Of a DNA stretch of 64,000 bases, positions 1-64,000 are shown in pieces; positions within the stretch are counted from its first letter, which is position 1, and the number at the start of each line of letters is the position of its first letter. The DNA is taken from assembly GCA_027382625.1 (NCBI GenBank), contig JAJKFJ010021246.1, forward strand, positions 1 through 64,000, given 5' to 3'. A model generated the notes under the pieces. The model was given only the letters and a program-made list of their open reading frames with translations, ran no database searches and was not told the DNA's origin. A program made the translations under genes and the position numbers. This DNA comes from Tetmemena sp. SeJ-2015 (lineage: Eukaryota > Ciliophora > Spirotrichea > Sporadotrichida > Oxytrichidae).

Positions 1-1265
1 GGAAATGTAGAAAGAGGCCTTTCAGCAGATTCGGTGACAGCTTCTTCTTCTTTAATAACCTTTATTCCTTTTTTTCTAATTTCCTTTCAATTTATTAATC
101 ATAGCTCTGCTAGATTATGCTTCTGAATTTCTAGCTTTGATTTTTTAGAATACCCTCATCGTTTAAATTCACTTGAACTGGTCTGCCCAAAGGTGATTTA
201 TTGAATCTCAGATTATTTTGGCTCAAGTCTTTTTAGTTACTCAAGCTCTTAAAGTTCAAGCCTTCAGTTTATTGTATGATGATCTTCCTTGGCTTCCTCT
301 CCTCTTGTTATACCAATGTTTGAGTTTGAGCCGGAGTGAGTAAGCGTATTCTTGGTTAAAATGCGGTCTCTGCTAGTTGAACGCTCATCGAACAGATTTT
401 CTGTCTCTTACTCTGACCTATTCCCACCTGTGCTGTTACTAACCTAGCTAAAAATTATTGAATTGCTTTAGTTGACCCTATTTTATCTATTCCCTAAAGC
501 CTAAGAATCTGAGAGATCTATGCTCATCACTTTATGTTCGTACTTATTAGCAGGTTCCTTCTAAACAGAAACGCTACCTCCATTCCTCTGATTTTAAGCA
601 TTGGCTTTAAGATTAGCATAGTCAAGAGTCACAGTTTTAGTAACACCTTGGTATTGCGCCTTCTTGTTGCTGCCATTTGGAGTAGGGTATACTTCGGAAA
701 AGAGCGCTATGAAGACCTTGCTGATTGAAAGGATTAATTTGAGGGAGAGCTCACAATTTGAGATTCCTCAGTTTCTGTGGCTCTGAAATTACTTGCATAG
801 TTTCTTTCTTCTTAATTTTTAACTTGGCTCTTAACTTCCTCTCTTTGCTTTTTAGAGCTAGAGACTTGCTGAACTCCTTTCTAAAGTATTGATGATTAGC
901 TATACCCAAAATATTTTGTTTCTATGGTGCAGTTGCTGTATCTACTGACTAACATTTGAGCTGGCTGACATCATGGAGGTATTTGAAATTTTACTTGAGG
1001 GAGCTTGCTTTGATAAAGAATTACTAGTGGTAGGTTGCTTTTAGTTTGAGGATGAATAACCTTAAAATTTTTGCATTTGGGGAGTAGCACCACTCATCTG
1101 AGACTTCTGTTTTTGCTTTTGAAGGCTTTAAGAACTCTGATTAAGTGAAGTTTGATAGTTATTTTGAGCAAGTGATGATCCAGTCTTTAAGTTGTTCTTT
1201 GTGTTTATATTGGAGGAGTGTTCGTTGGATTCGTTAGATCCTGTTTGATTGTTGCTGCCTTTCAT
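1..1265 (-). CDS. Ser/Asn/Gln-rich protein, 3' end beyond window (interrupted)
   Basis: I do not recognise this protein. It reads on the minus strand with TAA/TAG as Gln. From the ATG at 1265 it is low-complexity S/N/Q/K-rich (for example NNQTGSNESNEHSSN). The frame breaks at two places, each explained by an IES: TTGCTG repeats at 866 and 933, and ATTTG repeats at 675 and 737. After removing both, the frame is clean down to a TGA at 264-266. Beyond that TGA the sequence is coding-like again (reads such as KSPLGRPVQVNLNDEG and KVIKEEEAVTESAERP), so this TGA may sit in a further IES and the gene probably continues off the left edge. Coding-like sequence also extends upstream of 1265 to about 1420, so the true start may be earlier. 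Disordered composition allows no functional call. Confidence 0.55.
680..741 (-). other. IES, 62 bp, pointer ATTTG (CAAAT in gene sense)
   Basis: ATTTG occurs at 675-679 and 737-741. Deleting one copy and the intervening sequence (62 bp, not a multiple of 3) joins ...SSPSN to GSNKKAQYQ in frame on the minus strand. Without the deletion, the frame that is coding on one side is not the frame that is coding on the other. Confidence 0.75.
872..938 (-). other. IES, 67 bp, pointer TTGCTG (CAGCAA in gene sense)
   Basis: TTGCTG is found at 866-871 and 933-938. Removal of 67 bp restores the minus-strand frame, giving ...NVSQQIQQVSSSKKQREE. The excised part is AT-rich and lacks GT-AG ends at the frame-restoring positions, so it is not an intron. 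Confidence 0.75.
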
Positions 1266-1424
1266 TGCTTTATTATCAATAATTTAACTATTGGTATTCT
1301 TTAGACTGTCATTAGAATTCGGCTATGATTGATAAATTACGGGCTATGATGATGAATTATAGCTAATGAAATTAAACTAATCTAAAGAGAATTAAGAAGC
1401 ATCTAAGTATGATCTAACTTCTCT

Positions 1425-4697: not shown

Positions 4698-7088
4698 TCA
4701 GTTTTTATCTTGGATTTCATCGAAGGCTTTCTTGATTTCAGGGATTACTCCTCTGTCTTCAATGGTTGGGGTGACTCTTGGCTCTTTGACTCCATTCATG
4801 CAAAATGAAGAGAGAGTTAGCATTAACATTTGTGTTGCTCTGATTGGAGATGTCTCTGAGCAGATTTCTGAGGATCTTTCCACTTCTAGTCTTGGGAAGT
4901 TTGTTGACGAAGACCACGTATTCCAATTTAGCAAAGGCACCTATCTTCACTCTTACCTCAGCCTGGATACCCTTTGATATCGCAGTTCGATCCTACTTAT
5001 CATCTTAATAAAGAAATATGAACTTCATAATAGTCATCTTGTGCCACTACGAAGTACAATTAAAATTAAATGATCTCTTGGATTGTACGAAAGCGACTGG
5101 GACTTCTCCTTTGAGCTTATTCTCCATGCCAACTACAGCACACTCGGCCACGTCCTTCAAGTCGCACAGCACTTCTTCTATACGACCAGTTGAGATTCTA
5201 TGGCCAGCAGTGTTAATCACATCGTCTGTACGGGTCAGTACATAGATGTACCCATCAGCATCAAATTGACCTGCATCTCCAGTCAGATAGTAGCCAGCAG
5301 GACTTGAAAGATATTTCTCCACATAGGCTTGGTCGTTACCCCATAAGCCGTCCATGTGGCCTGGTGGGCAAGGCAGTTTCACAACAATCACTTAATCATT
5401 GGTTATAATAACATGTTGGTTCAATCTTTCCTGGGGTATCTGGAGTAGTGACAATCTTGTCATCGTCGTCCATAATTTGGATCTCCCAACCGGGGCAAGG
5501 CTTTGTGGCAGAGCCTGGCTTAGTAGGGAAAGTGTCTAGGTTGATGTAGTTGGAAGCCATGGGCCAGCCAGTCTCAGTCTGCCACCAGTTGTCGTTTAGA
5601 TGCTTGTCCGGCAGCAAGTGCTGAAGCCACCTGATAGTGTCTGGGTCGCATCTCTCTCCTGCAAGATGGATACTCTTAAGTCTAGAGAGATCATGTTGCT
5701 TCATGAGCTCACCATGGTAGTCTTCCTTCTTGACTGCTCTCACTCCAGTAGGAGCGATGAAGAGTGACTTGACTTTGTAGTCTTCGCAAATACGCCATAC
5801 CACTCCAGCATTAGGAGTTCCCACAGGCTTACCTTCGTACATGACAGTGGTGCCTCCCCTCACCAAAGGCCCATAGATGATGAAGTTATGGCCCACAATC
5901 CAACCAATGTCAGAGGATCAATTTAACAAAGCTGTCTGTTAGAATTTAAAAAGATGCGAACATAACCTCTTTTCTATGAAGATCGAATATGTTGTTCATC
6001 GCGATTGATAAATTTTAGGAGGCATTTTAAATCGCGTAGTTGTAGGCAGCGAGTTAGCCACCATGACTTCTGTAAATGCCCTTAGGAGCACCAGTGGTTC
6101 CTGAAGTATAAAGTATGAAAAATGGATGATCGCCAGGCACAGGCACGACATCATGACCCTGAGTGACCTTCTCCATTTCCTCGTTGTAGTCCAAATACAA
6201 ACGCTTGTCAATATCCTTCTCTCTGTAGCTTCTCCTCTGCACTATCACTCTCTTAAGCTCGGGCATACCAGATAAAACGCAAGCTCTGTCCACATTATCG
6301 CAGTAGGGGATGATTCTAGAGGGCTCAAGACCAGCTGATGCAGTAATTAATATCTTGGGGTTTGTAGCCTTGATGCGATTGGCCAACTCCTCAGGAGCGA
6401 ATCCTCCAAACACTACTGAGTGAATAGCTCCCAAACGGACGCAGGCATGCATAGCTATGAGAGCTTCTGGGATCATAGGCATGTATATGACGACTGTGTC
6501 TCCCTTACCAACTCAATTCAATTTTGACAAGCACCTTTTATAATAGATCTTATTACTCCATTGTTTGAGAGGACTCTAGCGAACTTTGAAACCTGTTTTT
6601 GGAGTTCATTGTAAGTGAGCTGCCTTGTTCTCTTGGTAAAGGCACTCTCGTAAATGACAGCTAGGTCCTCTCCATGTCCAGCATCAACGTGACGATCTAT
6701 ACAGTTGTAGGAAACGTTTGTGAGGCCACCAGAGAACCATCTGTAGAGAGGAGCCTTTGAGGAGTCAAGTACCTTGTCGTACTTCTGGAACCAATGATTC
6801 ATACAAAGAAAGGAATTTAAATGAGTATCTAAATTATGAATGAATATCTTTTGCCTGATCTTCCCAGAAGTGCTCTCTTGTCGCGGGATCTTCGGAGAGT
6901 CTTTTGTGCTCTGCGTAGCTTCCTTTCTTTATAGTTGAAAAGCTTGCTTTCTAAAGCTGTGATATGGAAGCTCCAGCTTTATGTGATTGAGATTAGAACC
7001 CAGAGGTGATTCAAAATAGAAGATAAAATTTTCAAATTTTCTTGATTATTTGAGTTATCTGTCTGAGTTTTTTAGACTGTTGAAGCAT
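4698..7088 (-). CDS. Short-chain acyl-CoA synthetase, ACSS3/propionyl-CoA synthetase type (interrupted)
   Basis: This enzyme activates a short-chain acid (propionate or acetate) to its CoA ester through an acyl-AMP intermediate (ANL superfamily). Diagnostic blocks in order: HFWEDQAKDIHWFQKYDKV, LYRWFSGGLTNVSYN, the P-loop ILYTSGTTGAPKGIYR, DNWWQTETGWPMASN, GYYLTGDAGQFDADGYI, DVINTAGHRISTGRIEEVL and the C-terminal KLPKTRSGKILR with the catalytic lysine. The words KLPCPPG and GYYLTGDAG favour ACSS3 over ACS1/ACSS2. The likely start is the ATG at 7088 (MLQQSKKLRQITQ), a basic, hydroxylated N-terminus that would suit mitochondrial import; the link to the first conserved block crosses at least one unresolved IES. 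The stop is TGA at 4698-4700. IESs with pointers GATT and TCAT are resolved; another lies near 4760-4850. Confidence 0.88.
5390..5426 (-). other. IES, 37 bp, pointer AATC (GATT in gene sense)
   Basis: AATC lies at 5386-5389 and 5423-5426. Removing 37 bp joins PDTPGKI directly to VVKLPCPPG, which is what ACSS3-type enzymes have at this point. A nested 22-nt GT-AG intron would also restore the frame but would leave an extra EPTL not expected from the family. Confidence 0.75.
6798..6843 (-). other. IES, 46 bp, pointer ATGA (TCAT in gene sense)
   Basis: ATGA at 6794-6797 and 6840-6843 bracket 46 bp whose removal joins HFWEDQAKDIH to WFQKYDKVLD in frame, the conserved N-terminal block of acyl-CoA synthetases. 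A nearby extra ATGA (6836-6839) makes the exact boundary slightly ambiguous. Confidence 0.7.
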
Positions 7089-9821: not shown

Positions 9822-9976
9822 ACTTGAAATCATAGTTAACTCATATAACTCCTGGATGAGTCTTTTTGGCTTTAATTTTGCCAGACCTTATATTTGTTTA
9901 AGTTTAACTCTTAAGATTTATAATAAATTAAATTGCTCTAATATCCCGCTCTCCAATATGTTAAATATATTGATAT

Positions 9977-13419: not shown

Positions 13420-15373
13420 ATGACTGCTATGGACATCAGCGAAATGATTGGGTATCTTGTTTCTTCTTTGAAATTGATTGTGCTCTCGGGAGTGCTTTAC
13501 TTCCTAGTAACTAGACTCTGGACTACTTACTATCGCTACTGGTACTACACTCGGCAAGGCATAAAATGCTTGAGTTTTCCCATGCCAATCCTCGGAACAA
13601 GTCTCAAGTTGCTGAAAGTTATGAAGGATGACGATCCACTCAAAGAGAATCCTGTCTCTCAATACTTCTAAAATTATTACTAAAAGTTTTAGTCTTAAAT
13701 TAAAAGATTTTTATTTCATCGAGAACTTTAAGCATTTAAGCTAAGAGGAACAGCCAAAAGTGTTTCTTGACTTTAGACGCTACGACGGTTTCGTGGTGTT
13801 CAGAGATCCAGATTGCGTGCAAGAGATCTTTTATGGCAAGGCTTCGCAGTTCATTGATAAAACGCCTCGGTAGAAACACATCTACAAAGATTTCGCTGGC
13901 AAGTCAATCATACTTGACCACACCACCAAAGAACAGCAATAAAAGAGAAAGCACCTGTCTGCTGCCTTCTACAAAGAAAGGATGCAGGCTCTTCTCCACA
14001 CAATCATAGAGATTAGAATATTTCAAGAGTTTATTTCTTATTTTTAGATGACTCTCGCTAGAATGAATGAGATTAGAGAGTGTGTTCAAAAGTCAGAGAA
14101 AGACAATGTGGAATACTAAACTGATCTCTCAGAGATGATCAACGACATCCTTCACAAGAGCGTTGAGATTTGCGTTTTCGGTTTCGTGAATGAGAATAGG
14201 ACCCTCACTTACTATATTAGTTATATCTCTAATTTTTACGAGAACTTGGATGGATCTACCATCGAGCTCAACATTGGATATTTCCTAAAGAGAACATTAA
14301 ATAGTTTAGATCTCATTTATTTAAGTTGATGAACAGTCGGCTAGATCTTTTGGAATATATTTTTATCTTATCTTTATGAGAGTGACAAATCCTTTGAGAT
14401 AATTCACCACCATCTTTGACGAGTCTTTGATTGGAAAGGGAGAGAAAAACGCCAACTACAACAACCAAAAATTCATAGTTTACATGCAAGAAATCATCAA
14501 CTAGAGAAAGGAGGAGCTCAAAAATCCCAACTTCAAGGGCTCAGACTTTCTCTCTCTCATTCTCCAGGATGAGCTTCTCAACTTTATTTTAACAAAGACG
14601 ACGAGTACATATAACAATAGAATTTGCTATTACTAGGATATTAGAAGAACTAATTGATTATAAGTGATGAGTGCAGAGCATTCATGGTTGCTGCCACTCA
14701 AACCACCGCCTCTACCATCACAAATACTCTCTACAGACTAACGATGTAGCCAGCTATAAAGGACAAAGTGCTCTAAGAGTTAAAGACTATCTTCCCTCAA
14801 GCTAAGAGTGCAAGCGATATTAGCTTGGATCAGTGGAAAGAAGAGCTCAGCTACGATAGTCTATCCTCAAAGTGGGGATATCTTGGCCAAGTAATTTATG
14901 AGACACTCAGAATTGACCCACCTCTCAAGTTGCCAATAGCTCTTTACAGTCTTGAAGATATCTAGATTAGGGAGTACAAGATCCTTAAGCACCAGTGTAT
15001 CACTGTCAACATCTTTGATCTCCACAAGAACCCTGAGAAATTGAACAATCATTTTTATTTTTTAAGATATATTGAGGAATGGTTTGAGCCAGAGAGTTTC
15101 ATACCAGAAAGATTCGACTCTGAGAACCCTTACTTCCTCACTCCCCAAGGCAAGAAAAGAAAGGCCATGAGTTTCATTCCCTTCTATGCTGGGAAGAGAA
15201 TTTGTTTGGGCAAGACTTTGGCAGAGAATCTCACTAAATTAGCTATTCCCCTGATTCTCTCTAACTTGGATTTCAGCTTCCCTGACTAGAATATGTACCA
15301 CAAAAAGCCAGTTAATGACTTGATGAGGGAGCCACGATACCCAGTCATTATAAAAGAAAGGAAGTAGCTTTGA
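13420..15373 (+). CDS. Cytochrome P450 (interrupted)
   Basis: A microsomal-type P450 monooxygenase; substrate unknown. The start is the ATG at 13420, followed by a single hydrophobic anchor (YLVSSLKLIVLSGVLYFLV). Then come a C-helix-like block (QKRKHLSAAFYKERMQ), the I-helix with VAATQTTAST, the K-helix ETLRIDPPLKLP carrying ExxR, the PERF-like region FIPERFDSENPYF, and the haem-binding loop FIPFYAGKRICLGKTLAE with the cysteine ligand (F..G.R.C.G). The stop is TGA 15371-15373 after RYPVIIKERKQL. One IES near the N-terminus is resolved (pointer ACTT); further breaks occur around 14010-14050, 14220-14400 and 14590-14680. All signature residues are present, so the processed product should be functional. 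Confidence 0.88.
13668..13728 (+). other. IES, 61 bp, pointer ACTT
   Basis: ACTT at 13664-13667 and 13725-13728. Removing 61 bp joins ENPVSQYF to KHLSQEEQPKVFLDF in one frame. The segment is AT-rich. Confidence 0.65.
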
Positions 15374-17184: not shown

Positions 17185-19938
17185 TCAACTCATGAGCTCC
17201 TCGTTTCCTTAGCCATTTTAGAGGTGAATCGCAACTTGTGTCTCACCGAACTTTTCCTCAATTAGAGTCTTAACTTTCATGGGAGGAAAGCTCTTGTTGA
17301 TTTACACAAACTTTCCTTTCACCTCTTTGATTGAAAGCCAGTCTGGGAACGCTTGCGATAACTCTACTATCATTCGACAAATGTCATCTATAAAGAAATA
17401 TAAGAAAAAACCTAATAACTTACCATTAGAGTGGAAATTTCCTCTCATTGAGTCGTTTAAAGACTTCACAAGGACAGTGAGATTAATCACAGAGATGTTC
17501 TTGAAGTTCATCTGCAGGATAATTTAGTCACTCAGCTTTTTGAGAAGCTCAACCTTCTTTTTGGACTCTTCTCCAATCATGGATTTGTTGAGCATTGACT
17601 ATGCTTGCTTAACTGCATTTTCCTTGGCCTTGATGATCTTCAAAGTTTGAATTGAGATGCCAGTCTTTTTGCTTAGCTCTTGCCAATGCTTTTCCTCCCT
17701 CTCTTGAGTTTACGCTGAAGTATTCTAGGCTTTATTTACATCTTTGCAAGCACTCTTATTCTCCTCTTGCTGCTAAAGATTTCTTGAAGGTGTGTGAGAG
17801 GCTTGAATCATTGCCTTTTGGACAAGGGAGTTTTGGACATTTGACTTGTCCAAAAAGTCTTTGACCGTCTCTGGCCTGCTTCTTGATACTTTCTAGAGCT
17901 CGGCTGAAATATCAGCCATAGGGATGGGTTCAACAGAGTGAGGATCGAACTTGTGATGCCACATTTGCTGAGTAAAAGGATCGAAATCGATGTGATCAAA
18001 TGGATCCCTCAAGTGCTGCTCTGACTACTTGTAGTTAGCAACCCATTTATCATAGCAATGAACTTTGACAAAGTTATACAACCTCTACTTGAATTCGTTG
18101 TGTCTGTGATGAAGGAAGGCTTCATTCATGACTTGGCTTTCATCTTTCTTAATGTCTATGAACAAATTAGGAGGAGCATAGCTGCTAGGTACCTCCCATT
18201 TATAGTTATAGAAATCAGGTGCGATAGTAAGTATCTGCCTGAAATGGCTTATCTCAAATTTTCTCCTGTGGTAACTTTGCTCCATTGATTTTGAAAGCTC
18301 CTCAAATTTCCCTACAGCCTTTCTACACTGCTTCATAAAGTAGATAGAAGTGTCAAGAATTTTCATCATTTCAAGAAGTTCTTTATAATGAGAAGGGAGG
18401 ACGAGATCTTTTTTGACAGAAAGGAGGTCACCATGCTTGAGTTTCATACTTACTTCCTCTCTGGCTAAGTCATTATAGTTTCTAGCCTGAGAAAGATGTT
18501 GAGGCTTTGGGCTAGTCTTTCTCGATGCAAGAGCACATTTTTCATTGAGAACAGAACTCAAAATATTCTATGTGGCTTGAGAAAGTTATGAAATCTGTGA
18601 ATTTGTGGCTGTTTATTGGGAGGATACAAACTTATCAGGGTGATACAGTTTTGGCTCTTAAGAAAGTTTTTCAATCTCTTCAAAGCTCATTTCTTGAATC
18701 AAAGGAGATGGCTTTTTTTGTTGAACCGGCTATTGAGCTACTTTATTGATATCAGGTTGAACCTACTATTGAGCCTAGTGAGATGGAGCCATAGTCTTTT
18801 TCAATATCGCCAAAGTAGAGGCGCTAAAGTTTGAAAGTGAAGGGTTTTGCTTTGTACTGAAACTCTCAGGCTGCTTATCAATGGCAGAAGGGGATTTTGA
18901 GTTTTATCTAGAATGCTTCTTTTTCGATTGGCTCTGGATTTGTTAATCTACTACAGTACTGTTATTCTCTTAGACCTTTAGGTTATAGATCTTTCGTCTG
19001 GAATCTTTTTGCGCATCTTCAACAGTAATTTCAGTGGAGGCTTGAGACTTTTAATTTAACTAAGGCTATTTATCTACCACTTATTGGGAGGAGTCAGAGA
19101 TATCTATAAATTTGAAATTAAACGATAATTATAAAATGGCTTATATATTCAAAATTTTAAAATGAGGATCCTTATACTACTTACCTTAAAGCTTTCTTTT
19201 CTTGGAGACGGCAGAAGTGGCTGCTTCATCTTTCATTTCTACATCTCTATTTTTTGACTTTGAAGAAGCTTAACTCCTGAGCATGGGCTAGTTTTAAACC
19301 CTCTGCTTTGTGTTGTTAGTAGTCATAGTGAAGAGATCTTGCTCTTCAGAGTACTAAGAAGATGAAGAAGATAAGTCAAGCTAATTTTGAGCCACAACTA
19401 ACCCCTTTGGGTTTTACTGTCTCGTCTTAGTTTGAGCTCGTGTGCTTGCTATTGCTCCGTTAGAGGTGTCTGACTCTGAATTGTTGTTTATAGATTGATA
19501 AGACTGGTGAGGAGCTTAAGGTTCTGCAAAACCTCTTTTCGTAGACTTGGATCTAGATGCAAGCCTTTTAGATTCTTGAGTTTTAGGATCAGCTTTCCTA
19601 GCTTTGCTTCTTGCATTGCTCCTTTATACTCTACCCTTCTTTGAAGTAGCAGCAACTTTGACCTCTTCAGGTAAAGTCTTGCCTGCGGAGCTGCTGGAGT
19701 AGGTAGAGTGCTAATCCTCATCTTTGTGTATGGAGATGAGTTTGGCATTTGCCTTGTTGAGAGCCTTGACTCTTGCAACTGCATCTGTGGAGAAGTCGAT
19801 GGGAGTGGCGGACTTTGAGTGGAAAGCACTACTGCTGCCTGCTCCCGTTTTCGAATCGAAGGGACTCGAACCGAATGGCGTTGCTACTTGGGACTTCTTA
19901 GTCTAAGGGAAAGAACTGGTGATGGATCCTTGTTTCAT
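17185..19938 (-). CDS. CDT1: DNA replication licensing factor CDT1 (interrupted)
   Basis: CDT1 helps load the MCM2-7 helicase at origins. The start is the ATG at 19938. The first residues, MKQGSITSSFPQTKK, resemble the PIP-box degron at the N-terminus of animal CDT1 (QxxIxxSF). A long disordered, basic, S/K-rich region follows. The geminin-binding-like domain is visible at 18100-18560: LVLPSHYKELLEMMKILDT, then RRKFEISHFRQILTIAPDFY. The C-terminal winged helix (MCM-binding) is at 17300-17510: DDICRMIVELSQAFPDWLSI, then VKGKFVQINKSFPPMKVKTL. The stop is TGA 17185-17187. A 36-nt GT-AG intron (17388-17423) precedes the last domain; several breaks between 17520 and 18080 and around 18600-19200 indicate further IESs. 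Confidence 0.85.
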
Positions 19939-26100: not shown

Positions 26101-26162
26101 CATTCTTAAGTAGTGAAGTTAAAATATTTTCAACTAATCTATAGACTTCTCACTCTTGATAT

Positions 26163-28928: not shown

Positions 28929-29089
28929 GAACAAGTATTCATTTGAAGGGAGGCAAGCCTTCTGATTTAATATTCTGAAGAATTTAAAAGAAAATTGAGA
29001 ATTTTTTTTGCTTAAAATACATGCTCTGAAGGCTGTTCTCTTGACATTATATTACGTTTTAAATTTAAGACATTATTTATTTTAAATGT

Positions 29090-29349: not shown

Positions 29350-29391
29350 AGGAGGAACTCTACTACTTTAAAACAAAATCAAAATATGCAA

Positions 29392-41700: not shown

Positions 41701-44700
41701 GCATATCGTGTGTACACTTTCTAAAATTCACATCCATCAATCCTGACTTGAAGAAATACATGAGCAGCAGACATGATGAATTCAAGCAAGCTCTTTATGC
41801 TGATGAGTAATCATCATTAGAAAATTCTGAATGGTTTTACCAATTTGATTTTAGTTATGAATGCACGAGCTTTGAACTATCAAAATATCCTATCGAACTG
41901 GAAGAAACTTGGCTTGGTCGTTCGATGGATGTGCTCATTTATGCTGTGACAGGAGTAGACTCGATTTCTCCCTACAACTATGTATCGTTTAGGTTGCTGC
42001 AAAGGATGGCAGACATACTCATGAACAAAGTAGACATAGATGTGATAGACCCCTTCCACCCAGGCGTGGATATAGTCTCTCATCTGAGAAACCACTACAG
42101 AGAGAAACTTAGAAAGCGCAAGTAGTCTGAGCGCACCTACTGGGAAGATCCACCTGAGGAATTCCTGGCTAAGATGCAGAGTAGCTCTCATGCCAAGGGC
42201 GGAGTATAAGGTGGGGGAGGGGACTAGTTCAACACCTTCTTCTAGCAGCACTACTTATTCACTTCCAATAACGGAATTCCACTTATCAGGATGTTCTTGA
42301 CTAAGAAGGTTCCTGAGTACGAGCAATGGCTAAAGAAAGAGTACTCTGAGGGATATGATGCAGCTAGGCTAAAGTTAGAGAAGCAATTACTTGAAAGGAA
42401 GACAAAGTATGAACTCAAGGAGCATGAGAAGCAAAGAGTAGAAGAGGAAAGGAAAGCCAAGGGGATCATTATTGCTAAAAATATAGATCATTACATTCAA
42501 TTATACTTGAAATTAAGCTTATAATAAGACTAGAAAGGATGGTAAGGATCAAGATTAGGATGAAGATGAATAAGGAATAAATATCCTCAGAATGGCTTTG
42601 CAGCAAGAGGAACTAGGTGGTACCTATGAGAATAGTGAGGCAAAGCAACAGGATCATTTTAATTAGAATGCCAAGACTGCCAAATCAATGAACGCAGAGA
42701 ACATCAAGAAGAGAGACTATAAAGTCGGAGTTTAGAATATTAAGATGCGTTCGCTTTGCATAGCTGCTTATTTGAGATGCCTTTTTGCAGCTCATTAAAT
42801 AAAAAAAGTGAGATAAATAATTTTAAAGCAATTGAGTATGCTCCGAACTAAGACTTGAAGTTCGAAGCTATTAGAAATTTGAAAGATGAGTTTGTACTTA
42901 GAAACATCACTCATTTAAAAATTGACAAGATTTATATTTAATTAAGATAAACTCAACTTTGCGATACTACCGGTTGGTTTGAAGCAAACATAGGTGCTAA
43001 GTATTTGAGAGTAGTTCGTCATATAATTAGAGTGCCTTATCACGAACCCTAAGAAGAGTTCAAGCACCTGCAACTCTATGAAATAATTTGCGTTGTGGTG
43101 AGGAAGATTCTAAACCTCCTCATGATTAAAATCAAGAATGAGCAGTAAAAAGCTCTAACCAATGAGGATAAAGTGCTCATTTACGAGCTCTCAGCAACTT
43201 GCAGGCTCATCTCAGAGCAGAGCTCTCTGTTCAGATGGTCTAACATGGAGGTCAAGCAGATAGGCTCTCACTAAAGAACTAGAAGGACTCCTCAAGAGAA
43301 ACTTCTAGACATTTAACTCTCAAGTCTGTTCCCATCACAATCAATCCTCACCTTCATAGCCATTATCTTCAGAGACATGAGCTTCGCCTACAAGATTTTC
43401 GACTAGGATGGGTCGTCTCAAAGCCAATCTTCAAGCGATTAGACTGATCTGTCGCAGTTTCAGCTGCCCTTCATAAAGTTAAAGAACGATCAGGCAAGAG
43501 AGCAGATAAAACTGTTCTTCGGAGATTACCTCAGCAAATGCAAAGACTACAAATATGACATCCTAGAGGCCTTCATGAAAGGAGTAGTCTTCGAGAAAAA
43601 GAAGCTAAGAGAGAGTTATCTATAGGAGATACTCAAAGCACTTTAAGACTCTGCTTACAAGTCAGCTATTGAAGACTATAATAAACTAATTCTATATCTC
43701 TTCACAAATTATAAGACTATCTTTATCAAAAGAAACTAGGGTTTGAGCTAGATCACAAAGAGAGAATAAATTACCTCGACTGGGTTGATTGTTCATTCGA
43801 TGGCAGCTAAACTTTTAAGCCCAAACTTTTGATCTTCACTAATAAAGGGATCCATATTATGAAATCCTCAGGTAGCAAACCTTGTAGTGTGTGCTCTCCT
43901 GAGAGCTTATGCCCTGAGGGACCAAAGTCTGAGTTTAAATTCAAGTATGATAAGATCATGGACGTAGTTCTCTTCCCTAATATTCCGCAGAAGATCATGA
44001 TGGTGCTTTAGCTAGGAGGAGGACTTATGAAGAAAGAGTAGACACTTAATGTCTGTATAAACGTTCCTTCTCTTTCGAGCGCTACTGACTTTACTTCATA
44101 AAAATTCAAGTCTATAACTATTTTTAACTTTTTCATTCTTGAAAGATATCTTGATATCTCAACAAAGCAACGTAATAGAGGATTGGGCGTTGCATGGAGC
44201 TGTAATGTATAACGTAGGTGCAGAGCAAAAGATAAGATGCGCTTCTATTGTGAGTCATAACCCAACTAGAGGTCTTCTGAGCTCACTGTGGGGTGAGGAG
44301 CAAGTGATCTACAATTCAACCTTGCTTGTGCTGACTGAGAAGCAAATAGTGCTTCTGAAGGAGAACTGGAATAGATGGTTTTGTATTGATGACGATGAAA
44401 AGATTGAACTTATTATTGCTAAGATGCTTCATTAAAGTGGAGGAGATAGAGGCAATGGCGACCACTCAATCATAAATGAAATTTTATCTTAGTATATAGA
44501 ATGAGTGCTTTATAAACTTGGATGGGTAGTCTATGGCTCAAAAGCAAGAAGAAAACAGGATTAAGCAGTCACTGCAAGGAATGCTAAGTGTATCTGCGAG
44601 GAGATATCTAGAGGAGATAAGTGACCTGCATGTCCACAAGGGCAAAGATCCTGTAGTGGAGATAGCATTTGGAGGCAGCAAAGTCGAAAAGATTATTTTC

Positions 44701-45030: not shown

Positions 45031-45300
45031 CAAATGAGCAGCGATTAAGAAGAAGTTGAGACAATTTAATAGTTACAAGAGATGACTGAAGTTAACGATC
45101 TCTATCTTGAAAGCACTATCAACTACAACTTATAAAATTTTGAGATTTTTAATTATAGGAAGTATACGGTACGAATAGATGATCATCTAATAAATGAAAA
45201 ATAGATGCGACTTTTGAAATAGTTGATCAACAGTAGTTTATTTGATTAGAATTAGATTAATTTCATTATTTTTAAATAAAAATACATAATGGCAAAATGT
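45031..45300 (+). other. Isolated open segment beginning with ATG
   Basis: MSSDQEEVETIQQLQEMTEV opens at about 45031 and stays open until it enters the palindromic element. Composition (Gln, Glu) is like the genes around it. It contains the left copy of the 22-bp inverted repeat (45147-45168). It could be a first coding block of the following ligase gene, a block of a scrambled gene, or a fragment. Confidence 0.3.
45147..45168. repeat. Left copy of 22-bp inverted repeat
   Basis: TTTTAATTATAGGAAGTATA plus CG, exact reverse complement of 46429-46450. Similarity extends inward past a few-base gap (GATGATCATCTA on the left, GATCATCTAAT on the right). No target duplication is visible outside. Confidence 0.7.
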
Positions 45301-45307
45301 GTAATCT

Positions 45308-45932
45308 CAAATCTCGGGGGGGGGCCTTTCCTCGACAGTAAAATTTTATAATGAAAAAAAGAAAGTAAAAAAAATGTTTCTAGGATAATTTTCGCTCCTA
45401 AATCTGATTCTTCCAATTAAAGAGGCCTATTCGAACATCTAAGGCCTCAAATTTTCATTCTAATTCAGTCAGCTTGAGGTCAGCTGCACCTAAATAAAAT
45501 CTATATTTTTAGCTAATTTTTCGCTATTGTAAAATAAATTTAAAGCGCTGTTTTGAAATAGAGTAATATTTTTACATAACCCAAATTTAATTCATGAAAA
45601 AGGGCTAATGCTACAACTTTTCAGCTCTACTTCTTTGGGCTTATAGCTAAAGCATGTTATGTTTTAAAAAAATATCACTCTATTTCAAAACAGCGCTTTA
45701 AATTTATTTTACAATAGCGAAAAATTAGCTAAAAATATAGATTTTATTTAGGTGCAGCTGACCTCAAGCTGACTGAGATAGAATGAAAATTTGAGGCCTT
45801 AGATGTTTGAATAGGCCTCTATAATTGGAAGAATCAGATTCGGGAGCGAAAATTATCCTAGAAACATTTTTTTTACTTTCTTTTTTTCATTATAAAATTT
45901 TACTGTCGAGGAAAGGCCCCACCCCAAATCTC
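45308..45932. mobile_element. Palindromic MITE with 8-bp target duplication
   Basis: The element (45316-45924, 609 bp) is an almost perfect inverted repeat: the left arm (45316 to about 45585) matches the reverse complement of the right arm (about 45655-45924) with only a few mismatches, leaving a loop of about 70 bp. The termini are G-rich, GGGGGGGGGCCTTTCCTCGA on the left and the complement with GGGGTGGGG on the right. CAAATCTC flanks both sides (45308-45315 and 45925-45932), consistent with an 8-bp target-site duplication, as made by hAT or Merlin transposases. It encodes no protein, so it would need a transposase in trans. The arms' near identity suggests a young insertion or gene conversion between arms. 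Confidence 0.85.
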
Positions 45933-46232
45933 TTTTACCTCTGAACTGTTTCTACGCTTCATCATACTAAAGACAGAGAGGTAAGTAAACCTTTTCGCTT
46001 ATTATCATATTTTGGATTTATTATAAAAGATTAGCCATAAATATCACTAATTTTCATAAGGTAAATGATAATAATCTGATCTTATTAGTACGCTACAATG
46101 TGAAATGGGGACTGCTCGATGCTACATAAAAAATCTCCTCCACGCTTTGAAAATGAGTACAAGGGTGCAAACTTTTTTTAAAGCGGAGAATGAATGCCTC
46201 TTAAATCTAGTAAGACATTTGTTCTGGAGCTA

Positions 46233-49200
46233 ATGATCAACTTAGGGCCAAAAGGAGAGCTGTGTGGAAAGATAAAACACTAGCAGATGGTTACAGTGTC
46301 AAACAACAATTGCTTAAAGTATTAAAAAACAAAATATAAACCTGAAGAAATAAGTTTTAAAAGGAGTTCAGCTTCAAATAGCTCACATAATTCAATTTAT
46401 ATTTTATTTACGTCAACGATCATCTAATCGTATACTTCCTATAATTAAAACCAAGTGGATGAAGAAACTTATTATAGCCAAAAACAATTCTAAACTCCAC
46501 CAAGTGAACTGTCAAACTAGAAAGTGGAGTAAAGTAAAGTTGATCACCTTACATAAAACGTTAGAAATGAAATGAAATAAAAGCCACCCTCAAGGGCGCA
46601 GGAAAGAAGCCAAAAGAGATAGAGCTCTTTGCCTTATATAGCAAAGGGCAATAGTCATTCAAGCCTCAACTTGGCAACTCCAAATAAAAATTAACTGTCT
46701 TTTTTCAATTTTCAAAAGTAATGATTATATGTATATATAGTGTCTCAGAGTTCTATAAAGCAGAGGGATATATCTAATGAGAGTAAAAACAGAGAATAAT
46801 CAAACAACTCTAGCATCCAAAGCTTGACTTTGAACTCAAAAATAGCTTTTTAGGCTGCTCAAAAGCATCACTTCGCTCAATCTAACTTGAAAAATAGCTT
46901 ATAGAAAGGAACTGATGCTTAGAAGGCTACTTCTATTTCAACTAAGAATGCTAATTATAATTATACAATTCATTAAAGTTTTTATTGTAATCTTCCTTAT
47001 TAAAACAGTAACTCTTCTCTGTAGGCAACTTCGAAAAGGAAAAGTCTTAAAAAAATTGGAGGTTCAGTTTTTTAAAGCATTATCATTATTATTACATTAA
47101 AGAGGATAGTCGGTGTCTCTGCAGATGGATTAATCGCACAAGTTTATAGGATAGGATGAGACGAATGCGCAATCGATCTACGGACTTCCATCTCACAATC
47201 GAAGAATCCCTCCTTCCAAAGACGAATTGGATTTAAACTAACATCCTACATATTAAATACAGCTAGATCATGAAGGATAAGTATATGATAATTCAATTCA
47301 TAATGCCTAGAATTAAAACTCTTCTTAAATTTCTTAAGATCAATCATCCTCACCACCCACATAAAACCAAAGCCAAGAACCTTAAAAACATAAAATGCAG
47401 CAAATCTTTATCAATAAAAGGGATAGTCAGAAGAAATAATAATTCACCACTGCCATTAACTATAAGAAAGATCTAAATGGGCTTATATACATTGAAAAAG
47501 GCAGCTTAAATCTGCAAAACATATCCAGACAAGAAGCGAACTCAAATTTTGAAAAATAATCTAAAAGCAAGGAAAAGGATACCAACACCAACTAAATTAA
47601 TAGAGAGAATAAAAAGAAGAATCTGCAAGCAGCAATAACTAGAGATAGTTTGCTTTAAACCAAATTTTAGGTTGTAGCAATAATCTTTAATAAGAGATAA
47701 CTTAGGATGTCAAGGCTCGTTCTATGCCTCAGAGTGCAGCAGATTATATAATATTTTATTATGTTTGAAGATTATACAAGGAAAATGAGTAAAGACTTAT
47801 CACAAGGTAGCCAATTAGAAAGAGAGGAAGATGAAATCTCAATTCATCAGTAGATTATACATGAAGAAACTAATTAAGCCAGTGAGTTCTACATTTCTAA
47901 AGATGACGGCGGGAATAGAGCTGGACTGAAGAAAGCAAGAGGCAAGGATGGTCAGATAGATGAATGGTTAAAGTCAACAGAGTAGTAAGAGATACGCTTC
48001 TAAAGAACATTCGAAATAGCAGGCATCAACTTTTACTCATTCCTCGTAATACATTTAGGGCATCTATATGAACTAACTCTATCAAGCTAAGCTCTTTAGC
48101 AAAACGGGACTAAATTAGAACCATTAAAAATAAGGTTCTTTAGTTGCGTCCAGCACAATCTACTAGCCTCATTTTGAAGGAAAATACTAGAAGTAACTCC
48201 ATCATCAAGCTTAAAATCTTAAACTTGAGAAGAGGAACATAAAAGTTCATAGTAATTAGAGTGAAGCACTCAATTTTCCAGATGATAAAGATCACTGGGT
48301 TTAAGAAGATGATGATAATGATACTTCCAATTTAAACGTGAAAAAGTCATCTAACCAAGAGTAGAGCTTGAAGACTAATTAAGCTATTGCAATTCAACAA
48401 TTCTATCAAGACAAATAGAAAAAGAGGTAGACTTTACAATTCACTGATAAAGGTGTTAGTAAATTTCTTACACCTGGCCCATAGATCAGAAAGCTCTAAA
48501 GATTCAACTAAATCGTAGAGCCACTTACTCTCATGTCTTCATTATTTTATCTAGTGGAGGCTTTTTTTATTTTAGGGAGAAAATTGCAAACTTAAAATCT
48601 GTGGCTGACTCTGGGATACAAACTTAAAAGCCAGCATAGATTATAAACTCTGAGAAACTTATTCAGATTCAATCCTAGTTTGACCTGAGGCTTTTGTCTC
48701 GTGAGACTTACCTCTAGGAAAGAAATCTTTAGAAATTTATTATGTATTGATGATATTGAAGAACTTTATTTTCCGAAAATAGTAGCTAAAGTATTCACCA
48801 ATTTATAGATTGACTTTATGTCTTCACAGACTGAGAAAAGATAGAGGTAAACTGGCCAAGAATTTTTAAAGTTCGCAAGAGATATCTCTTAAAACTCCCA
48901 AGGGGCTTTCTAGACATATACCTAGATGAATCTAACAAGCAAAAATAACCAGTTCAAGTTAGTTCCACTCATCAAATAGCAACAGCAGTAGCAACAGACG
49001 ATGCAAAAGTTTCCAATTCCAATTTAAAGTTCAGATATAGATGCAAAGAGTTTAAGAATAGAGCATATCTTTTAAATGCAAAAGACTTAATTTCAAGAGC
49101 ACGCATAGAAAGATCTTTTCAATCGATTGGCAAACTCATCTATACTAGGCCAAAATTAGCACTATTAGAAGTAATATAGAGTAAGTTATCCTTAGATTTA

Positions 49201-51687: not shown

Positions 51688-54195
51688 TCATACTGTGTTT
51701 GTAAGGATGATATCTCTCGCTCTCAATTATTGTTGATGTTATACTTTATAAAATTGTTATTCATAGTGAAGGGAGAGCTCGATGATCTGCTCTTCTTAAT
51801 TGCGTTTGGCATTAATTGCTTATTATAAATTGGAAGTGTAGATAAAAATTGAAATCATTATAACGTTTTCTTCAATTACTTTATTGTTATCTGTCTGTAA
51901 GACAAGACCATTTGCTTAACTGCTTTATGAACTAATGCCAATTCCTTGCTTCAACAATGCTTATTAGAGAATACTTCCAGTCTTCGCAGGCGAGTAATCA
52001 GCTGTCGAGAGTTAATTGAATATTTGTCCTGAGCTAGTGCTACTCTGTTGCTTGTAGAAGTCTGGCATCGTTCCAAGATCATTCGAACTCAGGCGCTTTG
52101 AAACATCACCCAACTCGTTTCTCTCAACTTCTAATAAATAATTCTTAATATTCTAAATAAGTTGATAATTTGTATGTAAATCAATCCTTTCAGATTCGAA
52201 ATCTTGCTAGTCAAATCCTTGGATCATCGTAGCTTTCAGAAAAGCAGGTATTTACTCATCATTGTCAAGTGATTTAGTTTAATACGGCACGTGCGAATTT
52301 AGATTATTTGCGAAATGAATATCTATACTACTCTTGTAAGCTTGAAGTTCATCTATTTCTTTTCTTAGTTTGTTAACTTCATATTCATGATGACGATTGC
52401 TTATCATTTATTACTGGATGTATCTCATGTACTTTTAGTTTGTCTCTTTTAATTCAACAACTAAATAAGCGAAATAAGTACACTCTTCATTTTAAAATTC
52501 TTGCACCTCCTCTTCTAGGGCATTAACTCTCATCTAAAGTCTGGTGATTTAATCACTTTAAGAATTTAGAAGAGAGCTGTTTCCACTGACATTAGTGCTT
52601 CTATTAGTCTCTCCAGTATTTAATCTTGCTTGCAAACTGCTCATTTCGAGGAACTTAATTATGTTCTAAGCCTCTTGAAGGTCAAGTTATTACTACTACT
52701 ACTGCTGCTACTATTAAGAGAAGCTCTTTTATTGTGAGCTGTTTCCATTCCCTTGGTTCTACTAAGTCTATTAACTAATAGATTGCTTCAGTACAGGTAG
52801 AAGTTGTTGAAAAACCTTCATGATGTTTTCAGACTCTTTGCGAGTCTAGTCAAGTTTACTCTTGAAACGATCTTCAGTCTCGTTTAGCAAAGTTTAAAGC
52901 TTGCGGTTTTCTTCCTTCAACTTGCGTACTTTATCTTTTGTGTGGGCAAGGTTGCTTCCACCATCGAAATCTGGCTAGGAGATCTTGAAATCTGAGGTTT
53001 ATTGAAGGGTTGATAGGATCTGTTAGTTGATGACAATCTAGGTGTTTTGAGATTAAGGAGGGTGATGTGGCACAACTGTCAGGCCTGTAACTCCACTATT
53101 TTAGGCCACTTATATGACGTTGTAGGCATCTTGAATATTCTTAGTGAGATCAATTCGTGTTGTGATCGCTCCACCAGATGGATTCTAAGATGAAGTGATG
53201 TTCTAAGAGTGAGAAGAGAGGATTTGAGTAGGCCCTTAATTTGGAGGAAGGATATTACTGCTGCCCTAATTGTTGAGATTATGATTGCCCGATCCTTGTC
53301 CGCTTGAATTTGGCATCGTTTAAGACTGAAGACCCATTCCGCCGTTGTGACCCCCAATAGCTTGGGAATTGAGGCTTACAGCTGGTATTTTAGATGTAGA
53401 GCTGACTGATTTCTTATGGCTGAGAGTTGAGGGATTTTAAGCAACTGGGCCTCCATGAATACTTCCATGATTTCTGGTCGAGCCATTAATCATTGTACTC
53501 TACTTGGGATTGCCAAGACGGATAGGTGAAATGCTAGGGATATTTATCTTATTCTAAAGCTACTGTGAATAACTCATTGCCTAGCTCAGATTACTTCCTT
53601 GATTCAACTATGAGGAAAGCTGCTGAGTGCTTAACTGATTACTTTACTAGATATTGTAGTGTGGCCGAGCAGAGAGTGAAGTCTGTTGCTATTGCTGATT
53701 TAGTAGCTGAGTGTGTTTGCTGTTTATAATGGCGATCCGAGAGCCTTTAATAAATGAGCCTCCACTTGGTTAATTGCTTCCAACTGTAAGACTAGTTAAA
53801 TAAAGTTTACACTATAACATTAGACCATCATGATCTCTATGACTTTGACTTCCGTTGAGATGAGCGAAGCTTCCCATCTGCTTTCTGTCTGGAGTAGCCC
53901 CACCATTATAGGCTACTCCTGCGTTCCCTTAAGCCTACTCTTGATTTGAGAAGCCATTATTGTTATTGTTATAAGCAGTGAATTGATTTTAATTGGAGGA
54001 CAGCTGTTGTGCAACTTGCTATTGTTGTTAAAATGATCCTTTAGAAAATGAATTAGGCCTGTTATGGTGTGCTTGCTGCTGAATTTACTATGCTAAAGAT
54101 GCAGGTTGGGCTTGTGGATGCATCTAGTTGGAATTTGAATGTGAATGCTGCTGTTGGTTGAGAGATGATATCTGTGAATGTCGCTTGGTGCTCAT
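51688..54195 (-). CDS. Gln/Asn/Ser-rich protein with C-terminal coiled coil, uninterrupted
   Basis: A single open frame of 835 codons when TAA/TAG are read as Gln: ATG at 54195, TGA at 51688-51690, no frame break. The N-terminal two thirds are prion-like, rich in Gln, Asn, Ser and Gly (MSTKRHSQISSLNQQQHSHS at the start). A coiled coil follows: KDKVRKLKEENRKLQTLLNE, then after a Gln run LQMRVNALEEEVQEFQNEE, and KLRKEIDELQAYK. Roughly one codon in six is TAA/TAG/CAA/CAG. It converges on the TTLL gene with a 123-bp gap between stops. No IES and no intron are needed, in contrast to almost all genes to its left. No family recognised; possible RNA-granule or scaffold role is a guess from composition. 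Confidence 0.75.
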
Positions 54196-54451
54196 TAATC
54201 AAATTTCTCAGTAACTACTATTATTCGATTTAAAAAGATTGAGAGCAAACAGGAGGGAGATTAAAACTTATTATCGAAGAAGAGGAAGAGATCTTGCAAT
54301 TGAAAGTCGATAAACTTATCTGGACTACTACGAGAATAATAATAGATAATTGATATATTAATTGTCTTAAATCGGAGATGAAGGAAAGTAGGAGGAATAT
54401 AAATTAGATGATTAAGAGAGAGAAAGATATATAAACTTATTAGAGACAAAG

Positions 54452-55294
54452 ATGAGAAAGTTTGAGAATCTTGAATACACGATTACAGACGATAAAGTCG
54501 CAGTAATTAAGCTCAACAGAGTGAAGAAAATGAATGCACTCACTTTTGAGATGTTCATAGAAATAGAGCAGTGCGTTAATTACATAACTCTTGAGCAAAC
54601 TGAAAAGGAGGTGAGAGCTATAGTCCTTACTCACAATGGTAAAAACTTCACCGCTGGATTAGATTTGCAAGCTGCTGCCTCAATCACTACAAAGAATACT
54701 GCTTCTGATGATAATGACCCTGCAAGAGTTGCCCTCAATACTCAAATATATGTAGGCAAGTTACAAAATGCAGTTTCAGCGTTTGAGAAGGCAAGAGTGC
54801 CCGTTGTTGCAGCCATAAGTGGCTATGCTGTAGGTGCTGGAGTGGATATCGCAACAGCCTGCGATATCAGAGTCTGCTCTAAGGATGTAAAGTTCACCAT
54901 CAAAGAAGTTGACATCGGTCTCTGTGCTGATATTGGAACTATGCAGCGTTTCTAGAAAGTGGTCGGAAACGATTCATTCTTCAGAGAGCTGGCCTTCACC
55001 GGAAGGTACTTTTATGCTGAGGAGGCTCTTCAACAAGGCTTAGTGAGCTACGTTACTGAATGCCAAGAATCCTGCTTTAAAAAGGCTTATGAGATCGCTG
55101 CCTTAATTGCCACTAAATCTCCAGTAGCTGTCAATGTGATTAAGCAAAGTGCTAACTACAGCAGAGACCATAAGGTGCAGGAGGGTCTCGATCACATCCT
55201 CTTACTTAACATGTCGGCTCTTCAGACCAAGGACACTTAGCTTTCAGTCATGGCAAGCATGTCAAAGCAAAAGGCTGAGTTCCCTAAGTTGTGA
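54452..55294 (+). CDS. ECH1: Delta3,5-delta2,4-dienoyl-CoA isomerase (ECH1-like), uninterrupted
   Basis: An enoyl-CoA hydratase/isomerase superfamily member of 280 residues. ECH1 isomerises 3,5-dienoyl-CoA to 2,4-dienoyl-CoA in beta-oxidation of odd-position unsaturated fatty acids. ATG at 54452 (MRKFENLEYTITDDKVAVIK); TGA 55292-55294. Oxyanion-hole segments are KNFTAGLDLQAAAS and VAAISGYAVGAGVDIATACD. EVDIGLCADIGTMQRF matches the ECH1 word EVDVGLAADVGTLQRLP, including the acidic residue specific to this isomerase, and is followed by FFRELAFTGRYFYAEEALQQ. One in-frame TAG (Gln) lies directly after GTMQRF. The C-terminus ends PKL, a weak candidate for a peroxisomal signal; no obvious mitochondrial leader. 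No IES. Confidence 0.92.
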
Positions 55295-57797: not shown

Positions 57798-57918
57798 ATG
57801 ACATTAGTGAGTTATATTAATATGGAATTGCTGAGTGTTTATAATTTAAAACTAGAAAGATACCCTTCTAGAACACTCTACGAACTACTACCAAGTCAGT
57901 CACCCATCACACATAACC

Positions 57919-60015
57919 ATGTCTGAAGAAGTTTTTGCTTTCAATGCTGATATCCAGCAGCTGATGTCCCTCATCATCAACACCTTCTACTCCAACAAGG
58001 AGATCTTCTTGAGAGAACTCATCTCAAACGCATCTGATGCCCTCGACAAGATCCGCTACAGATCCATCACCGAGCCAGAGCAGCTAGAGACCGAGCCCAA
58101 CCTCGGAATCAAGATCATCCCCGACAAGAGCAACAGCACCCTCACCGTCTGGGACACCGGTATCGGTATGAGCAAGGCTGAGCTCATCAACAACCTCGGA
58201 ACCATCGCCAAGTCAGGAACCAAGGCATTCATGGAGGCCATCTCCGCTGGTGCAGACATCAGCATGATCGGTCAGTTCGGAGTCGGTTTCTACTCCGCCT
58301 ATCTCGTTGCCGAGAAGGTCACCGTCATCACCAAGAGCAACGATGACGAGCAATACAGATGGGAGTCCAACGCTGGCGGTACTTTCACCGTCGTCAAGGA
58401 TGAGGGCGAGAGAATCACCCGTGGAACCAAGATCATCCTCCACCTCAAGGAAGACCAGATGGAGAACATTGAGGAGAGAAAGCTCAAGGATCTCGTTAAG
58501 AAGCACTCCGAGTTCATCGGTTTCCCCATCGAGCTCTACGTTGAGAAGTCCCAGGACAAGGAAGTCACCGAGTCAGACGACGAGGAGGACAAGAAGGAAG
58601 AGGACAACAAGGACGACGAGCCCAAGATCGAGGAGGAGAAGAAGAAGGACAAGAAGAAGAAGAAGATAAAGGAAGTCACCCACGAGTACGAGCAGCTCAA
58701 CAAGACCAAGCCCATCTGGATGAGAAAGCCCGAGGATATCACCAAGGACGAGTACTCCAGCTTCTACAAGGGTCTCTCCAACGATTGGGAAGATCACCTC
58801 GCCGTGAAGCACTTCTCAGTCGAGGGTCAACTCGAGTTCAAGGCTCTCCTCTTCGTTCCCAAGAGAGCACCCTTCGATCTCTTCGAGACCAAGAAGAAGA
58901 AGAACAACATCAAGCTCTACGTTAGAAGAGTCTTCATCATGGACGACTGCGAGGAGCTCATCCCCGAGTGGCTCGGCTTCGTGAAGGGAGTCGTCGACTC
59001 TGAGGATCTTCCCCTGAACATCTCCAGAGAGACCCTCCAGCAGAACAAGATTCTCAAGGTCATAAAGAAGAACATCGTCAAGAAGTGCTTGGAGATGTTC
59101 GCTGAAATCCAGGAGAACCAGGAGGACTACAAGAAGTTCTACGAGCAATTCTCCAAGAACCTCAAGCTCGGAATCCACGAGGACACCACCAACAGAACCA
59201 AGATTGCTGACCTCCTCAGATTCCACACCTCCAAGTCTGGCGAGGAGCTCATCTCCTTCAAGGACTACATCGCCAGAATGAAGGAAGGCCAGAAGGACAT
59301 CTTCTACATCACTGGTGAGTCCCGCGCAGCAGTCGCCAACTCTCCCTTCCTTGAGGCACTCAAGAAGAGAGGCTTGGAAGTGCTCTACTTGGTCGACCCC
59401 ATCGATGAGTACATGGTCCAACAGCTCAAGGACTACGACGGAAAGAAGCTCAAGTCTTGCACCAAGGAAGGACTCGACCTCGAGGAGACTGAGGAAGAGA
59501 AGAAGCAGCAGGAAGAGGAGAAGGCCAAGTTCGAACCCCTCTGCAAGCTCATCAAGGACGTCCTCGGAGACAAGGTCGAGAAGGTCGTCGTCTCTACCAG
59601 AATCGACGAGTCACCCTGCGTGCTCGTTACTGGAGAGCACGGCTGGACCGCCAACATGGAGAGAATCATGAAGGCCCAAGCCCTCAGAGACTCATCCATG
59701 ACCTCCTACATGATCTCCAAGAAGACCATGGAAATCAACCCTCGCAACCCCATCATCCAGGAACTCAGAGGAAAGGCTGAGGTCGATCAAAGCGACAAGA
59801 CCGTTAAGGACCTCATCTGGCTCCTTTTCGAGACCTCCCTCCTGACCTCAGGATTCTCCCTTGACGAGGCCAACACCTTCGCCAACAGAATCCACAGAAT
59901 GATCAAGCTTGGTCTCTCCATCTTCGAAGATGACAAGCAAGAGGACGACGACCTCCCACCCCTCCAGGAGTCTTCTGACGTCGTTGTTGACAACAAGATG
60001 GAAGAGGTCGACTGA
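57919..60015 (+). CDS. HSP90: Cytosolic HSP90, uninterrupted
   Basis: Complete 698-residue cytosolic HSP90 chaperone. ATG 57919, TGA 60013-60015. N-terminal ATPase: [55 protein letters not shown] charged linker (about residues 214-255) separates it from the middle domain with [39 protein letters not shown]. The C-terminus ends KMEEVD, the TPR co-chaperone docking motif of cytosolic forms (MEEVD). There is no IES and no intron, and it contains no TAA/TAG Gln codons. Codon use is strongly biased to C/G third positions (AAG, CTC, ATC, GAG), unlike neighbours and consistent with high expression. Two heat-shock elements lie just upstream. Confidence 0.97.
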
Positions 60016-62795: not shown

Positions 62796-62849
62796 CCATC
62801 CTTCTCGATATTTTCCTATCTGTTAACCCTTGCTTAGATATCTTTCCAG

Positions 62850-64000
62850 AACGACAGATATCTTTTGGATTCAGAAATCCTGAAAAGGGACCCCAAAGAC
62901 TCCACTATCCTCGATCCATCTGTTATTAATGCTATCAAGCTTCAAATTGTAACAACACATTCTTTTCATCTTCCTTTTAGAGTATCTGTGATGCGAATCT
63001 GTCCTTATCATACCCATCTGCACTTAAGAAGAAAACCTTATCTCAGCAAAGTCATACTGAAATGAACACTCTCTCTTCCCCTTTCCTCGAGCTCTCGTTT
63101 AAGATGGAGTTGACAATTCGATTAGTGAAGGTAATGTTCCTAGATGAGAGTAGCTTAAGATCTAACTTCGAGGAAATGAGACTTCTCAAAATACCCTCTA
63201 TGCATACTTGTCTTCCTCTGACTGAGAGCTTTTACACGAATAAGTACCAACCCAAGCCAGATTAAATAGTTGTCCATGACATCAGCAATGACAAGTTTGA
63301 GGTAGCTAAGAAAGCAGACTTCATGGTTTCTCAGCCTTTTGAAAAGCCTTGTCAGAGTTTAGAAATCGCGCTTTTATAGTATAGAACGATTCTGAGGGAG
63401 TAAGTGAAAGTGCTTCACGAAAAGTAACTTGGATCTATGAATCTAACTTTCTTTGAGCTCGTTCATTTATCTACTATAAGAGAGAACTTTGATGAAGATG
63501 ACTTCACTTCAGAGTTTAGTCAAGCTTTACGCGAAGGAAGGCAAATAATGATGGCTAACGCCCAATAGAGAGGAGGAGGGGCATAGACAGAGAAGCCTTC
63601 GTTTGGAGGAGGTTTCAAGTCTGCTGCTAATTTCAACTGCTAAACTTCAGTGACTACAGCCAGTGAAAAATCTGAGGACTCAAACCACGGAAGTGTTAAA
63701 TCCTCTACGAAGCAATCACCTAAACTTGAGTCCTTAAATGGATTTTCAGTTTTACCTTCATTAAGCGATCGCTTGCGAGACCTGCTAAACGTTTTGGACT
63801 ATATAGAGCTCAATAGTGAAGAAGCCAATTATTTTGGTAAGAAATGCGGTATCAGCGATAAGTTCAAAGCCTTTAGACAGAACCCTCGGCTGAAAGACTT
63901 CAACAGAGTGGTACAGAAATTCATAGCCTCTCAGATTCGTTACATAAGAGAACGCCAATTTTAACACCAGAATTCGATCAGCTCTACACACTCATTTGCA
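62850..64000 (+). CDS. Unknown protein, 5' start unresolved, cut by right window edge
   Basis: The first readable exon begins after TATCTTTCCAG at 62849 with NDRYLLDSEILKRDPKDSTI. A 33-nt GT-AG intron (GTAACAAC...CTTTTAG, about 62949-62981) joins it to SICDANLSLSYPSALKKKTL. From there the frame is open to the window end without a break: ELSFKMELTIRLVKVMFLDE, KPCQSLEIALLQYRTILREQ, a Gly-rich loop (RGGGAQTEKPSFGGGF), a Ser/Lys linker, and SLSDRLRDLLNVLDYIELNS followed by QNPRLKDFNRVVQKFIASQI. No family recognised. Divergent from the minus-strand coiled-coil gene. Confidence 0.6.

Follow-up and report, generated by a model that had tools for sequence, protein, structure and literature searches.

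The window, by which we mean the whole stretch of 64,000 nucleotides analyzed here, lies within contig C2325 of a 146.2-Mb assembly that comprises 5213 contigs. It holds genes for an ACSS3 / propionyl-CoA synthetase, a cytochrome P450, a CDT1-like protein, enoyl-CoA hydratase (ECH) and HSP90, together with mobile-like elements and repeats (Table 1). The gene families named in an earlier sequence-only reading of this DNA were largely recovered, with Pfam matches for NAA35, ankyrin, Maf, P450 and TTL, a protein search for ACSS3 and a sub-threshold score for LRR; PTEN, which had also been named, gave no Pfam match in the regions and frames scanned, part of these regions on both strands. No Pfam match at E 0.01 was obtained in any of the six frames along the 8.6 kb between positions 19800 and 28400, a region that is possibly germline-limited.

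Table 1. Features of the window. IESs are candidate internal eliminated sequences; the pointer is the short direct repeat at their borders, and controls are other deletion lengths from the same start interval.
Feature	Position	Strand	Description
ACSS3 / propionyl-CoA synthetase gene	4698..7000	-	8 pointer-flanked segments, TGA stop; outer limits approximate
IES 1	6798..6843	-	46 bp, pointer TCATT; 5-bp repeat reached by 1/96 control lengths
IES 2	6515..6558	-	44 bp, pointer GAGT; 4 bp reached by 4/94 controls; NNGVGKGDTVV restored
IES 3	6004..6036	-	33 bp, pointer CGCGAT; 6 bp in 1/83 controls
IES 4	5919..5955	-	37 bp, pointer ATC; 3 bp in 13/87 controls (weak alone); MFASSDIGW restored
IES 5	5390..5426	-	37 bp, pointer GATTG; 5 bp in 1/87 controls; GKIVVKLP restored
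IES 6	5054..5091	-	38 bp, pointer TTCGTA; linker, length left loose by homology alone, 1-bp run
IES 7	5007..5040	-	34 bp, pointer AAGATGA; linker, length left loose by homology alone, 1-bp run
IES 8	4797..4830	-	34 bp, pointer AATG; linker, ambiguous placement, homology-only run 1 bp
P450 IES	15034..15072	+	39 bp, 85% AT, pointer TGAG
CDT1-like gene	17185..19941	-	single 918-aa ORF, 40 TAA/TAG codons read through
~625-bp repeat with inverted ends	28971..29595 (L036-L046)	.	carries ubiquitin-like fragment
Element insertion site in ORF	42924..42946	+	C617 allele has 937-bp element between CTTAT repeats; window form without element
Element with 22-bp perfect terminal inverted repeats	45147..46450	.	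absent from allele C617
Enoyl-CoA hydratase (ECH) gene	54083..55294	+	single 403-aa ORF
HSP90 gene	57835..60015	+	uninterrupted 726-aa ORF

The HSP90 gene serves as a taxonomic marker, and its product is 93% identical to HSP90 of Stylonychia lemnae with 94% of the query covered. Like the CDT1-like and ECH genes, it is a single stop-to-stop ORF, and the three are counter-examples to the earlier claim that most genes of the window are interrupted and its ORFs are blocks, which stands for ACSS3 and P450. Reading through TAA and TAG is also seen in the best actin match, which contains three such codons. The residue specified at TAA/TAG, expected to be glutamine, could be read at very few sites, namely two aligned codons in ACSS3 and none in HSP90, with mixed columns in actin. 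On visual inspection the reading frame is broken in the genes for NAA35, ankyrin, Maf, P450, DUF846, LRR and VTT, of which P450 is the one whose exact junction was tested.

The ACSS3 gene was identified by protein search, in which the hand-joined protein matched thousands of relatives. Profile alignment shows its segments to be collinear on one strand and, with respect to 120 relatives, to be separated by eight extra segments of 33-46 bp, each of which can be read with a perfect direct repeat of 3-7 bp at its borders. The extra segments contain 68-79% AT, as against 52% in the ACSS3 coding segments. When all eight are removed, the longest piece of 313 aa gives way to one ORF of 669 aa that ends in TGA, and whose translation shares 70% identity with P0122 (463 aa, residues 192-658) and 54% with P0121 (residues 32-660). 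The open frame by itself is a weak argument, in that 30 of the 256 possible subsets of removals give an ORF of at least 600 aa and the only segments common to all of them are IESs 2, 4 and 5; the others rest on homology, including IES 3, which is in frame, has no in-frame TGA and is revealed by homology only. Segment lengths are fixed by homology in five of the eight cases. The remaining three lie in loose linkers, and their junctions (TTCGTA, AAGATGA and AATG) were placed partly by means of the repeats, a step that depends on the hypothesis. Two elements of a first reading by hand, a TCT pointer at 5.92 kb and an intron at 6.52 kb, gave way to the homology-fixed ATC and GAGT, respectively.

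In the P450 gene, alignment to P450s of the PDB reveals a 13-residue insertion between NP and W. The segment is in frame without an in-frame TGA, so homology alone shows it, and its 4-bp repeat is reached by 8 of 89 control lengths. A paralog of ACSS3 on contig C586 has segments of its own, with CAT, ATGCT and TTTG repeats. The three of its segments that were compared (CAT, CATCAGT and ATGCT) are present, with both repeat copies, in C586 and in its allele C2045, and these two contigs align over 15.7 kb with no indel above 12 bp.

We further analyzed the repeats at junctions placed blind to them: the eight of ACSS3 and one of P450 in the window, and five of the ACSS3 paralog. For the ACSS3 junctions, a spliced alignment ignorant of repeats and splice signals placed a profile of 120 relatives on the raw DNA. 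The deletion length was set by the alignment, with at least five ungapped flanking codons on each side of the jump; the longest perfect repeat permitted by near-optimal junctions was then scored, and up to 120 other deletion lengths from the same start interval served as the control, the results being joined by Fisher's combination. At nine of the 14 junctions, the segment lies between perfect repeats of 3-6 bp; one of the nine, the TTTG junction of the paralog, adjoins an alignment gap, and its length is less sure. The repeat runs are 5, 4, 6, 3, 5, 1, 1 and 1 in the window ACSS3, 3, 0, 2, 5 and 4 in the paralog, and 4 in P450, and the five junctions with runs of 0-2 (three in the window, two in the paralog) are placements in loose regions. 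The comparison of repeats at the breaks with this control gave a combined p of 8e-5 for the 14 junctions, a value to be taken as a guide rather than an exact probability because junctions within the same gene have neighbouring sequence in common. A stricter version with 12 flanking codons gave p = 0.0017 (six junctions).

No signal was obtained when codon usage was the only guide. In a hidden Markov model run over the whole window, with jumps restricted to repeats, true repeats were not preferred over shifted offsets, the true score being reached by 32, 23 and 9 of 44 shifted controls for repeat lengths of 4, 5 and 6. We read this result as a lack of power, because codon bias is slight and repeats often arise by chance; the pointer pattern is therefore established for genes with homology and not for the window as a whole. 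The earlier count of 15 bracketed places in 10 genes came without coordinates, so junctions were rebuilt by homology, in the window for the eight segments of ACSS3 and the one of P450; PTEN, one of the genes counted, was not found in the scans.

Ordinary spliceosomal introns, removed from RNA, would likewise be short, AT-rich and located within genes, and hypotrich genes do carry introns, given as 1.1 per gene in Tetmemena and 1.7 per gene in Oxytricha (PMC9797194). However, with all equivalent placements checked, a GT-AG placement was found for none of the eight ACSS3 segments, nor for the P450 segment, and introns do not characteristically have perfect, site-specific repeats at their borders. 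We consider this explanation very improbable.

C4A4 is the telomere unit of hypotrichs. The 20-base sequence C4A4C4A4C4 occurs 67 times in the assembly and, as an exact match, forms the start of C298, C586, C672, C739, C770, C1030, C1301, C4311 and C4966 and the end of C334 and C508; a control with the reversed pattern is uninformative here, as the sequence reads the same backwards. In the window, C4A4C4 has no match with up to one mismatch. For all four telomere-ended contigs examined (C586, C334, C298 and C508), a match to another contig stops where the telomere begins, and in three of the four this partner continues beyond the telomere site, as read directly in C2045 and seen from the coordinates of C3499 and C1815. 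At these sites, telomeres were apparently added to macronuclear chromosomes.

Telomere-ended C586 still holds the segments of the ACSS3 paralog. In C334, a gene that we take to be RFC1-like contains two IES-like segments, recognized by eye between CGAGC and AGACT repeats, that are not of the GT-AG type and reach to within 705 and 139 bases of the telomere. The plainest account of contigs with both a telomere and IESs is that the short-read assembly fused the end of a macronuclear chromosome with germline sequence. It is unlikely that C586 and C334 are real molecules; if they were, breakage and telomere addition could precede the excision of IESs at some loci, or some somatic chromosomes could retain their IESs. 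According to a PCR study that covered Stylonychia and Oxytricha, conventional IESs are usually removed first (PMC2394655). An internal C4A4 array lies on the minus strand at C2828:3805-4156, perhaps a germline telomere or a telomere-bearing element.

In euglenids, nonconventional introns are flanked by short direct repeats, and introns of this kind, spliced from RNA, would fit both the repeats and the absence of GT-AG borders. The HSP90 gene, however, puts the genome in the hypotrichs, and C4A4 ends at sites that are internal to longer contigs suggest that the somatic genome is fragmented, which leaves such introns scarcely probable.

Allelic contigs correspond to 33.0-48.7 kb of the window (C617), to 31.9-41.8 kb (C4338, with 10 kb compared) and to 0.1-4.3 kb (C2307), parts other than the ACSS3 and P450 genes, and the nine tested IESs fall outside them. 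They are 92.8-97.5% identical to the window, and the only indels of at least 8 bp are two in C617, of 17 and 25 bp, together with two large elements. The haplotypes are about 6% apart, with C617 and C4338 differing at 514 of 8776 sites. At 506 of the 514 differing sites, the window matches one or the other, in 162 alternating runs, and it has 26 private differences in the 8776 columns. The window is a collapsed mosaic of two haplotypes; the three versions of 33-42 kb, which at first suggested more than two, fit such a mosaic. No IES-free copy of window 1-60000 was found among the best candidates examined in the assembly.

Reading frames broken by pseudogene decay or assembly errors might be expected in an assembly that is mixed, with bacterial-looking contigs and collapsed haplotypes. 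Yet the breaks are inserts of 33-46 bp with perfect repeats, not random indels, in a protein that is otherwise conserved. The segments of the paralog are present in two separate contigs, and elsewhere in the window the allelic contigs differ by the few larger indels given above. We give this explanation very little credence. Excision bounded by TA, of the Paramecium or Euplotes type, is hardly conceivable, for although one of the eight ACSS3 pointers, TTCGTA, contains TA, the other seven lack it at the junction, in keeping with the repeats varying from site to site that the sequence-only reading had described as not TA-bounded, and Euplotes is reported to reassign UGA (PMC9797194), whereas the long ORFs here read through TAA and TAG.

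With a probability of about 0.92, we interpret the window as hypotrich micronuclear (germline) DNA that contains pointer-flanked IESs. That it is unprocessed DNA of this kind had been proposed before, and the HSP90 affinity, the C4A4C4A4C4 contig ends and the pointer-IES pattern in two window genes and one paralog argue for it at the level of sequence. Genes would be cut into macronuclear-destined segments by short AT-rich IESs, each lying between two copies of a pointer that is different at each site. During development of a new macronucleus, the IES would be excised from the DNA together with one copy of the repeat, and the chromosome would be fragmented and its ends capped with C4A4 telomeres. 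Excision at the DNA level, rather than from RNA, is anticipated, as is a machinery that guides it; such IES guiding machinery is known from Oxytricha.

The IESs of Paramecium are also short AT-rich segments within genes, with a strict TA boundary that is not seen in the ACSS3 segments here. Spirotrich IESs are removed from DNA in Euplotes woodruffi, E. vannus and E. crassus; Euplotes differs in its use of UGA for cysteine and in the TA pointers conserved in E. vannus and E. crassus (PMC9797194), whereas ACSS3 here stops at TGA and has pointers that are not TA. In its short variable pointers and short nonscrambled coding IESs, the window resembles the germline of the hypotrichs Stylonychia lemnae, Oxytricha trifallax and Tetmemena sp. 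(PMC9797194, PMC2394655). C4A4 telomeres are a further feature shared by these hypotrichs and the present assembly, and among the genes analyzed here none was identified as scrambled. In actin I of S. lemnae, nonscrambled pointers include CACAT, TCGTT and AAGA, with IESs of 64, 23 and 49 bp, respectively (PMC2394655), the same size as those of the window. Pointers that vary, IESs that are short and not scrambled, and germline assemblies of hypotrichs have thus all been described before (PMC9797194, PMC2394655). The comparative germline paper treats three spirotrich species, and the hypotrich germline assemblies reported there are of 237 and 496 Mb (PMC9797194), as compared with the 146 Mb of this assembly. 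In an open-access PMC full-text search, no paper on the assembly was recognized by its title or the start of its abstract. Published hypotrich germline assemblies seem few, and the present one, in which two haplotypes are represented, would extend their number. Genes called from six-frame translation come out wrong on contigs of this kind, even where an IES is in frame and free of stops.

The two haplotypes also allow the gain of IESs between alleles to be watched, for instance in the element of C617 that lies within an ORF. This element (reverse complement of about 9923-10860) is haplotype-specific and transposon-like, with short imperfect inverted ends recognized by eye. Its removal with one copy of CTTAT restores the frame of the ORF, which is open in the window. 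The coding sequence just 3' of the site is covered by a distant homolog with 26% identity, and a protein search with the gene at 38.7-43.7 kb gave one match, with 22% identity. Judged by its sequence, the element would be an IES present in one haplotype only, and its excision is presumed. Within the element that has terminal inverted repeats, a nested palindromic element of about 610 bp (45316-45925) matches at least 33 other contigs at 88-93% among the best candidates. The ~625-bp repeat is matched 37 more times in the genome, with identities of 68-97% and in many cases over part of its length. Its ubiquitin-like fragment gave a Pfam E value of 2e-5, just below the cut-off, and is readable in 7 of the 11 copies examined.

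The contigs checked are all longer than 10 kb; 14 of them (C204 to C1537) are sorted by size and the others are not, and the assembly appears to be merged. COX1 was matched three times, on contigs of bacterial appearance in both composition and protein, and contaminants are probably present. HSP90 has four further matches at 96-97% on contigs of 2.35-2.65 kb, a size that would suit nanochromosomes. At C2882:10796 (L070), the start of an 18S rRNA is followed by sequence that, by eye, diverges, perhaps a degenerate germline copy of the rDNA.
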